NCBI GenBank assembly: GCA_021793645.1
Contig: JAJYSJ010000001.1
Span: forward strand, 124,001 to 188,000
Length of the DNA stretch: 64,000 bases
Origin: Bacillota bacterium
GTDB taxonomy: Bacteria > Bacillota > Sulfobacillia > JAJZYS01 > JAJYTV01
Reading direction: 5' to 3'
Made by a program: the position numbers and the translations under genes. This document shows positions 19,229 through 42,698 of the stretch, in pieces (position 1 is the stretch's first letter; each line of letters opens with the position of its first letter). A model generated the notes under the pieces. It worked only from the letters and a program-made list of their open reading frames with translations, was not told where the DNA came from and made no database searches.

Positions 19229-20212
19229 CTAGGCGCCGCGACGCAGAAGCTGCTCGCGGACGCGCCGGTCCGTCAGGCGGTCAAGCCCGCGTACGATCGA
19301 CTCGTCCGGCGTCTCGTCGCAGTGCATCGGCAGACCCAGGGCGTCCGGCAGGTGTTTGCGCAGGGTCAGCAGGCGCGAACCGCCGCCGGTGAGATAGATG
19401 CCGTCCTCGGCGACGTCTGAGACGAGTTCGGGAGAAGCCTCTCGCAAGAGTTCTTGGATCGCGGAGGCGATGTGGGCAGCGAGTTGGCGCGCGGGCGCCT
19501 CGATCTCCGCCCGCTGCACGCGCAGCGCGCGCGGCAGCCCGCTCACGAGGTCGCGACCGTGAAGCACAGCATCCGCGGAGCCGTTGCCCAACAGGTCGTG
19601 CTTGAGGACCTGTGCCGTCGCCGGACCAACCATCATGTTGTACTCTTCGCGCAGCCGCCGCACGATCGCCTCGTCGAGGGTGTCCCCCGCTTCGGGCAGC
19701 GTCGCCGAGACGACGGTGCGGCCCAGCGACAGGAGGTCGATCTGTGTGCGCGAGGCGCCTACGTCGACGACGAGGGTGCCTCGCGGTTCAAACAGCGGCA
19801 GTTCGAGGCCGAGCGCGCGACAGGCAGCCAATTGGGCGAACGCGACCCGTGCGGCACCTGCCTCCCGTGCCAGCAGCCAAAACGCCCTGCGGTCGAGCGC
19901 TGTCGCCCCGGACGCCAACGCAACCACAATCTCTGGGCGCTGCCAGCGGCTGCGGGCCGTCCGTCCGATCAGTGCCTTGAGCAGCGCCTGCGCCAGCCTT
20001 TGCGAGCGTACACCGCCTCCCGCAAACGGGCGCTCGGCCAGCAGGCCATGCGGCGTGCGGCCGAGCATGCGCTGCGCCTCGACACCAACGGCGATGATGT
20101 TGCCACCGTCATGGTGCGCGACCACCGCCGGTTCTGAAGTCTTGCGATTTTTGCTGCCCTCGGCTGTCATGCGGATCGTTTCACTGCCGAAGTCGAAGAG
20201 CAGTCTACGCAA
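19229..20212 (-). CDS. MreB/Mbl-like actin-family protein (divergent)
   Basis: 327 residues, about the length of MreB, with the actin-ATPase phosphate loops LLFDFGSETI at residues 4-13, VVDVGASRTQIDLL in the middle and YLTGGGSRL near the end. The segment AGDTLDEAIVRRLREEYNMMVG aligns with MreB. The usual DLGT and DIGGGT loops are altered (DFGS, DVGASRT), so it may be a paralogue such as MreBH/Mbl, not the main elongation filament. TTG 20212 follows GGAGGGAACGGC. It stands alone, without mreCD. Confidence 0.75.
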   Translation of the reverse strand: MRRLLFDFGSETIRMTAEGSKNRKTSEPAVVAHHDGGNIIAVGVEAQRMLGRTPHGLLAERPFAGGGVRSQRLAQALLKALIGRTARSRWQRPEIVVALASGATALDRRAFWLLAREAGAARVAFAQLAACRALGLELPLFEPRGTLVVDVGASRTQIDLLSLGRTVVSATLPEAGDTLDEAIVRRLREEYNMMVGPATAQVLKHDLLGNGSADAVLHGRDLVSGLPRALRVQRAEIEAPARQLAAHIASAIQELLREASPELVSDVAEDGIYLTGGGSRLLTLRKHLPDALGLPMHCDETPDESIVRGLDRLTDRRVREQLLRRGA

Positions 20213-20332
20213 GCCGTTCCCTCCACCAATGCGCTCATGGCTCTATTAAGCGGACAAGCGCTCCGGAACGCATTGCATAATTGTTGGGCGCAGTGGCACC
20301 GGAGCGCCTGCATTGGAAGCAAGGAGGCGCAA

Positions 20333-20368
20333 ACGCAGGGACGGCGCCATGCGGCGCCGTCCCTGCGT
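20333..20368 (-). terminator. 16-bp perfect hairpin terminating the ndk-mtaD operon
   Basis: ACGCAGGGACGGCGCC, loop ATGC (plus strand), then its exact complement. It lies 10 bases after the mtaD stop. Only a short TTT follows on the minus strand, but stem length and place make it a strong operon end. Confidence 0.7.
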
Positions 20369-20377
20369 CCCTCTTCG

Positions 20378-41165: not shown

Positions 41166-42506
41166 CTACTCGAGCAGGTCCTTGAAGTCGTCGCCGACGA
41201 GGTCGCCGATCGTTGCACCGTCGCCCTCGGGGGCCGTGCTGCCCTCCTGGTAGGGTTCGCGCTTCTGCGACTGATAGCCGCCGGCGTCGCGCAGGCTCAA
41301 GGAGACGCGTCGCTCGGCAGGGTCGACGCGCAGTATCTTGACCTCGACCTCCTCGCCGACCGACACGACTTCGCCAGGTCGCGTGACGTGATGGTCTGCA
41401 AGCTGAGAGATGTGCACGAGGCCGTCGATGCCAGGCTCGAGTTCGACGAAGGCGCCGAACGTCGCGAGACGCACGACCTTGCCGCGCACGATCGATCCGA
41501 TCGGGTAACGCTCCTCGACGCTGTCCCAGGGATTCGGCAGCACCTGCTTGTAGCCAAGAGAGATGCGGCCGCGCTCACGATCGAGGCGCAGCACCTTGAC
41601 GTCGATCTCCTGGCCCTCGTGCAGCACCTCGGACGGGTGCTGGATGCGTCCCCAGGACATCTCCGACACGTGCAGAAGGCCGTCTACGCCACCGAGATCG
41701 ATGAAGGCGCCGAAGTCGGTGAGGGACTTCACGGTCCCGTGCAGCACCTGCTCCTCCTCGATCCCGGACCAGATGCGCTCGCGGTTCTGCTTGCGCTCCT
41801 CCTCCAGCACGACCTTGCGCGAGAGGATGACGCGGTGCTTTGCCCGGTCCAGTTCGATGATCTTCACGCGCAGCGTCTGACCGACGTACGGCTCCAGATC
41901 CTGCGCGTAGCCGCGCTCCACCTGAGACGCGGGGATGAAGCCGCGGGCCCCGATGTCCGACACAAGACCGCCCTTGACCGCCTCGACGATCGGAGCCTCG
42001 ATCACGGTGCCTGCTTCGTATGCGTCCTTCAGTTCATTCCATGCCTCGGCCTCGTCGGCGCGCCGCTTCGAGAGGCGCAGCGAGCCTTCCTCGCCGTCTA
42101 CCGAGAGCACCATGGCGTCGATCTCTGCATCGAGTTCGGCGGCCTCGGCGGCGGAACCGATCTTGCGGTAGGTGAGCTCGCTCAGCGGGATGACGCCCTC
42201 CGACTTGTACCCGACGTCTACAAGCACGTGGTCGTCCGCGATTTGAACGATCCGACCATGCATGATGTCGCCGGGACGCGGTCGCGCCACGCCTTCGCTG
42301 TAATCGACGCGCTCCTCCGTACCCTGCCCCGCTGCGGTTGGCTCTGCGGCTTCGGCCGATTCCTCCGCCGCGACCGGTTCGGCTGGTGCAGCCGATTCGA
42401 CCGGCTCGCTCGGGTTCGGTTCCGCCTGCGGCTCCGCAGTGTTCTGCGGCTCCTCCGCGGCGCCTTCTGCCTGCTGGTCAAGGTCCGGGTGCAGATGGTC
42501 CTCCAC
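41166..42506 (-). CDS. rpsA: 30S ribosomal protein S1 homologue (four S1 domains)
   Basis: 446 residues. An acidic, Glu/Ala/Pro-rich N-terminal tail of about 65 residues is followed by four S1 RNA-binding domains (about 75-145, 160-230, 245-315, 330-400), e.g. GTVKSLTDFGAFIDLGGVDGLLHVSEMSW. Four repeats are usual for Bacillota YpfD-like S1 proteins, versus six in E. coli. GTG 42506 follows AGGAGGT by 6 bases. A structured leader and its own promoter precede it; it lies downstream of cmk and plsC as in Bacillus. Confidence 0.92.
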   Translation of the reverse strand: MEDHLHPDLDQQAEGAAEEPQNTAEPQAEPNPSEPVESAAPAEPVAAEESAEAAEPTAAGQGTEERVDYSEGVARPRPGDIMHGRIVQIADDHVLVDVGYKSEGVIPLSELTYRKIGSAAEAAELDAEIDAMVLSVDGEEGSLRLSKRRADEAEAWNELKDAYEAGTVIEAPIVEAVKGGLVSDIGARGFIPASQVERGYAQDLEPYVGQTLRVKIIELDRAKHRVILSRKVVLEEERKQNRERIWSGIEEEQVLHGTVKSLTDFGAFIDLGGVDGLLHVSEMSWGRIQHPSEVLHEGQEIDVKVLRLDRERGRISLGYKQVLPNPWDSVEERYPIGSIVRGKVVRLATFGAFVELEPGIDGLVHISQLADHHVTRPGEVVSVGEEVEVKILRVDPAERRVSLSLRDAGGYQSQKREPYQEGSTAPEGDGATIGDLVGDDFKDLLE

Positions 42507-42554
42507 GCGATGACCTCCTTTGTTGAACGCTGGCATTCCCTGCCGAACGCTCCG

Positions 42555-42658
42555 TCAACAACAGATGACGGGCCCTGCGGCCCGCTGTCCTTCGGACTCT
42601 TCACCTGTTGTTGAATCGACCGCCTTAACGGACGGTGATCCCCGATGCCTCCGGGGGC
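42555..42658 (-). ncRNA. Structured 5' leader RNA of the S1 gene (three-way junction)
   Basis: On the minus strand TCAACAACAG (42605-42614) pairs perfectly with CTGTTGTTGA (42555-42564), enclosing two hairpins: GTCC-GAA-GGAC (42587-42597) and CGGGCC-GCAG-GGCCCG (42569-42584). Upstream are two more hairpins, ACCGTCC/GGCGGT (about 42619-42636) and CCCCG/CGGGG (about 42640-42656). The leader starts shortly after a sigma-A promoter. It fits an autoregulatory ribosomal-protein leader; no known Rfam class is recognised. Confidence 0.55.
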
Positions 42659-42668
42659 TAGCCTTCTC

Positions 42669-42698
42669 AGCATAGCGGAGGCCCGCGGCGACTGTCAA
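42669..42698 (-). promoter_or_regulatory. Promoter of the S1 gene
   Basis: TTGACA (42693-42698), 18-base spacer, TATGCT (42669-42674) on the minus strand; the -35 box overlaps the plsC stop. Confidence 0.7.

Follow-up and report, generated by a model that had tools for sequence, protein, structure and literature searches.

What occupies the stretch between the promoter of a ribosomal protein S1 gene and its ribosome-binding site, and does it control the gene? The question arose in a 64,000-nucleotide stretch of DNA from a Bacillota bacterium, referred to below as the window, for which the initial annotation had placed a structured, seemingly autoregulatory leader RNA behind a sigma-A promoter. 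A promoter of this type was located by a consensus scan on the minus strand (Table 1). Its -35 and -10 hexamers are invariant in nine relatives and the spacer between them varies. The plsC-like gene upstream extends to 42695, within the -35 region, and the promoter overlaps its stop codon. The S1 transcript should start near 42662, and a leader of about 157 nt lies between the promoter and the GTG start of S1. The Shine-Dalgarno sequence (SD) is strong and is spaced 7 nt from this GTG. Although the longest S1 open reading frame opens at an ATG at 42536, this ATG is not conserved in the relatives while the SD and GTG are invariant, and it is thus not likely to be the S1 start. The GACC in codons 3-4 is able to pair with the GGUC of the SD (42515-42512), and the entire block that holds the SD, the GTG and this GACC is identical in all nine genomes.

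The two hairpins and the subsequent three-way junction of the initial annotation were all found on the minus strand (P1, P2 and P3), together with a fourth hairpin, P4, that it had not named. The junction had been described as a 10-bp closing stem around two perfect hairpins. The closing stem (TCAACAACAG with CTGTTGTTGA) is present, RNAfold lengthening its pairing to 13 bp, and the inner hairpin 3b is perfect; the other inner hairpin, 3a, proved to be weak. It has the form GUCC-GGAC in G000 and G003 and GCCG-CGGC in the second genus, and it comprises 2 bp in G001. The three-way junction is composed of one strong arm (3b) and one variable arm (3a). The ribosome site, expected about 40 nt past the junction, was found about 35 nt on, at most 5 bases from the end of P4.

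Table 1. Features of the S1 leader and its surroundings (positions in the window)
Feature	Positions	Strand	Remarks
Sigma-A-type S1 promoter	42669..42698	minus	consensus scan; TTGACA 42698-42693, 18-nt spacer, TATGCT 42674-42669
P1 hairpin	42640..42656	minus	CCCCGG-AnGCA-CCGGGG; transcript 5' end; sequence nearly invariant
P2 hairpin	42615..42639	minus	stem present in 9/9 genomes; sequence drifts, 66% identity
P3 closing stem	42555..42614	minus	13 bp, around two hairpins; 42614-42602 pairs with 42567-42555
3a inner hairpin	42587..42597	minus	GUCC-GAA-GGAC; weak; form differs between genera
3b inner hairpin	42568..42585	minus	GCGGGCC-GCAG-GGCCCGU; perfect 7 bp; six-pair core CGGGCC/GGCCCG invariant
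P4 hairpin	42525..42552	minus	between P3 junction and SD; near-neutral drift (64% identity), pairing retained
SD and start block	42497..42521	minus	SD AAAGGAGG 42521-42514; GTG 42506-42504; GACC in codons 3-4, 42500-42497
S1 ribosomal protein gene	41166..42506	minus	446 aa; four S1 domains after an acidic, fast-evolving N-terminal stretch

The leader folds more stably than shuffled sequences (z = -4.2), and none of 200 shuffles reached its stability. When the window was used as a control, with 39 reading frames preceded by an SD, the S1 leader had the second lowest z value (-5.65). Only the frame at 20212 scored lower, owing to a long terminator hairpin beside an MreB-like gene. The intergenic region of the amidohydrolase-like and MreB-like genes carries a long terminator-like hairpin (GGGACGCAGGGACGGCGCC...GGCGCCGTCCCTGCGTTT) at 20310-20370 on the minus strand. 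Accessibility of the S1 SD was 0.36, which is average for genes in the window. Its GGUC half is more than 90% paired in the folds of all nine genomes, either with a 5'-end GGCC or with the GACC of codons 3-4, and these pairs do not vary among the nine; given this and the average accessibility, we do not propose that the SD is sequestered by default.

Relatives were found by searches with the S1 protein and with the leader DNA. The S1 start is assembled in nine genomes of the GTDB family, representing two genera, and in all of them the leader stands directly before S1. For a tenth genome of the family (G008) only the last 77 S1 residues were found; its leader is unreadable and it was left out of the nine. 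The closing stem, whose presence in near neighbors had been singled out for checking, occurs in each of the nine that can be read. We searched 154 genomes of the class with a covariance model of the leader (R1), which recovered the nine family members and one weak match (G111, E 8e-4). The latter falls within a transposase reading frame and was rejected as a chance match, and the remaining 144 class members gave no credible match. Likewise, no convincing second location for the leader emerged from an order-level covariance search at a loose threshold, and weak order-level matches in L011 and L021 were not significant. Scanning for the P1 pattern in 84,980 named genomes returned eight members of the family, all of them metagenome-assembled genomes named as Bacillota or Clostridia, plus one unrelated Myxococcales contig, about the number expected by chance when a 20-base pattern is compared with 257 Gb. 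No Rfam 15 family matched the leader, either at the gathering score or at E up to 5. The annotators' remark that they knew no S1 leader of this kind agrees with this result and with the papers that could be searched, where we found no counterpart.

In many other families of the class (L012, L013, L017-L020, L024, L026, L028, L030-L032) the open S1 frame extends some 280-410 aa farther upstream. These extended frames are consistent with a fusion of S1 to IspH (HMBPP reductase), and hence with there being no separate S1 leader in those genomes. We tentatively take the upstream extension to be IspH from the open frames and an IspH motif.

Compensatory changes, which the initial annotation had named as the evidence to look for in relatives, were found in P3 and P4. 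Standard pairs make up 95.7% of cells in the alignment of the nine sequences; shifting the partners by one to three columns lowers this to 50% or less. One P3 pair changes from A-U to G-C between the two genera. One pair of P4 occurs as U-A, U-G, G-U and G-C, and a second is swapped from G-C to C-G in G003. None of 500 shuffled controls reached the paired percentage or the covariation score of the real alignment; the number of pairs with changes on both sides (three) was reached by 32 of the 500. Re-alignment to the R1 model gave 96.1% paired, although a model alignment leans towards the structure. We also ran a simulation in which as many substitutions as were observed fell on the S1 gene tree, free of any structural constraint. 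In this tree-aware simulation of nine sequences from two genera the pairing was significant for P2, P3 and P4 combined (P = 0.03) and for all helices (P = 0.027), and most single helices were not significant. P1 and 3b hardly vary and thus contribute no covariation. These results indicate that covariation support for the structure is real but modest, in line with the small sample of nine sequences in two genera.

Sequence constraint provides a separate view of the leader. The leader averages 81% pairwise identity, whereas four-fold degenerate sites in S1 codons 80 onwards average 59% and third positions 65%. The most constrained parts are the SD region (97.5%), P1 (94%), 3b (87%) and the P3 strands (85-87%). 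P2 and P4 drift almost like synonymous sites, and both form hairpins in all nine genomes (mononucleotide-shuffle P of 0.002 to 0.04), as P1 and P3 also do. Free sequence with retained pairing, as seen in P2 and P4, is the clearest sign here of an RNA structure.

Constraint was also found within the coding sequence. Four-fold sites of S1 codons 1-8 (VEDQLHPD) are 100% identical, versus 65% in codons 9-80, which argues that the leader element probably reaches into the S1 reading frame. These codons, beginning at 42497-42506 in the window, are fixed at their silent sites, and the next 60-70 codons, an acidic linker, evolve very fast. This contrast suggests constraint at the RNA level within the frame. 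A similar motif is common to P1 (42640-42656; UGCACCGGGGAUC in several relatives) and to S1 codons 5-9 (42482-42496; CUGCACCCGGAUC). The likeness could reflect a repeated recognition site or could be due to chance.

The comparative data indicate that this region is a real, conserved and lineage-restricted structured cis leader of the S1 mRNA in one uncultured Bacillota family. It is probably a ribosomal-protein leader. S1 is the sole r-protein gene in its transcription unit, and 'Only' is a listed criterion for assigning the ligand of an r-leader (PMC7247131). Since no other r-protein is encoded downstream, genomic position alone makes S1 the most likely ligand. We give an even chance to the proposal that the leader is an S1 r-leader, to which unincorporated S1 binds so as to lower translation initiation. 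S1 that is not taken up by 30S subunits would bind the folded leader, with the near-invariant P1, the junction strand ACAGGUGAA and the invariant 3b as candidate recognition parts. Bound S1 would then lower initiation at the SD right after P4, and the level of S1 would track the number of ribosomes. We infer a regulatory role for the leader, S1 as its ligand and translation, as opposed to transcription or mRNA decay, as the step affected. Of the three mechanisms tested, translational control by a bound factor is the most likely. No terminator in the leader has a proper U-tract, which points to translation, and the closeness of P4 to the SD and the pairing of the GGUC half in nine folds favor this route, yet accessibility of the SD is only average. 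The strong SD, which is the opposite of what E. coli rpsA needs, and its ordinary accessibility count against the S1 r-leader model. So does the view that S1 in Bacillota is less central to the ribosome than it is in E. coli.

The main rival is a constitutive leader that stabilizes or insulates the mRNA. Hairpins at 5' ends stabilize mRNAs in Bacillota, and P1 starts only about 6-7 nt from the inferred transcript start, so that an array of 5'-terminal hairpins, unresponsive to any ligand, could guard the S1 mRNA from RppH and RNase J decay, free the SD region and keep expression steadily high. A strong SD that is about as accessible as others in the window would suit such a role, as would P2 and P4, which require pairing and not sequence. 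We nevertheless consider it unlikely, since a stabilizer has no need for a near-invariant P1, an invariant 3b or a conserved junction strand, and these resemble a recognition surface. The leader might instead respond to another RNA-binding protein or a small molecule. A compact, invariant multi-helix fold with conserved unpaired bases would fit such a ligand, and the assignment of S1 is made from position alone. However, a search of Rfam with E values up to 5 gave no riboswitch match, and, unlike most riboswitches, the leader precedes no other gene; a ligand other than S1 therefore seems rather improbable.

Two further mechanisms were weighed. The 3b hairpin and the U-richer sequence that follows could constitute an intrinsic terminator opposed by P3. 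A simple scan does flag 3b as terminator-like, and the S1 leader of a related family (f4) has a canonical terminator in one genome (L025). The first 8 bases past 3b, however, hold only 4-5 U in the nine genomes and are broken by C and G. This U-tract is too poor for efficient termination; 3b was rejected as an intrinsic terminator, and we regard attenuation as very unlikely here. To a translational switch we attach hardly any credence. The 3' arm of P3 (CUGUUGUUGA) would quit its partner and pair with UUCAACAAAGG at the SD, hiding the ribosome site. In the window, UUCAACAA just before the SD repeats the P3 5' arm (7 bp, about -8.8 kcal/mol), and the alternative pairing forms when that arm is blocked in silico in the window sequence. 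In relatives the pairing is broken by an A-to-U change (G003), by a deletion (G004) and by a missing U (G007 and G005), and with the 5' arm blocked they adopt other folds. Since the alternative pairing is not kept, an SD-sequestering switch through this arm was rejected as a mechanism for the family.

Within the same order, the S1 leader of family f4 (L021, L025) is like the present leader in having its own promoter, a length of about 145 nt and a hairpin with a GC-rich stem. It differs in that it shows no significant fold overall (z about 0) and no significant match to R1. The f4 upstream regions (L025:1280-1480, L021:1380-1500) contain a different leader, with GCGGTCACGGTTGnGAGAACGGATCAGGGGC as its conserved core. 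Before the S1 start in L025 this leader ends in a canonical intrinsic terminator, AGGGGCTGTAAAGCCCCCGTTTTTTGTTTTT, the U run of which is degraded in L021. The L025 leader is thus a candidate for transcription attenuation.

The leader also resembles the r-leaders of Bacillota for L20, S4, S15, S10, L19 and L31. These share with it a narrow range and a structured 5' UTR that consistently lies upstream of an r-protein gene; their structures are supported by covariation, which in the present case is modest and comes from two genera. S1 is not known to have the usual kind of dedicated rRNA site that a leader could imitate, and the rRNA mimicry common in other r-leaders is therefore not expected. 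S1 is the ligand of none of the 20 motifs in PMC7247131. The present leader is confined to one uncultured family, and its importance beyond that range is limited unless leaders like it precede S1 elsewhere. As a compact RNA it does lend itself to asking whether an S1 with four domains can recognize a specific structure.

S1 autoregulation has been established for gamma-proteobacteria. Their rpsA initiation region adopts a specific fold and lacks a canonical SD, and restoring such an SD to E. coli rpsA abolishes control (PMC10931766). Detailed knowledge of autogenous S1 control is limited to this group, in which the absence of the SD is needed (PMC10931766). Like the E. coli operator, the Bacillota leader consists of several hairpins directly before S1, and here too control is probably translational. 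Unlike that operator, it carries a full consensus SD that is invariant in nine genomes. An operator of the E. coli rpsA type, which requires that the canonical SD be absent and that translation depend on contact of S1 with the mRNA, was accordingly rejected for this strong-SD leader. We therefore suggest, tentatively and at somewhat short of an even chance, that this may be the first case outside the proteobacteria of an autogenous leader for S1, combining a four-domain Bacillota S1 and a strong SD with a mechanism unlike that of E. coli rpsA. If so, feedback by S1 in Bacillota would have arisen independently and by another mechanism, as a strong-SD S1 leader suggests.
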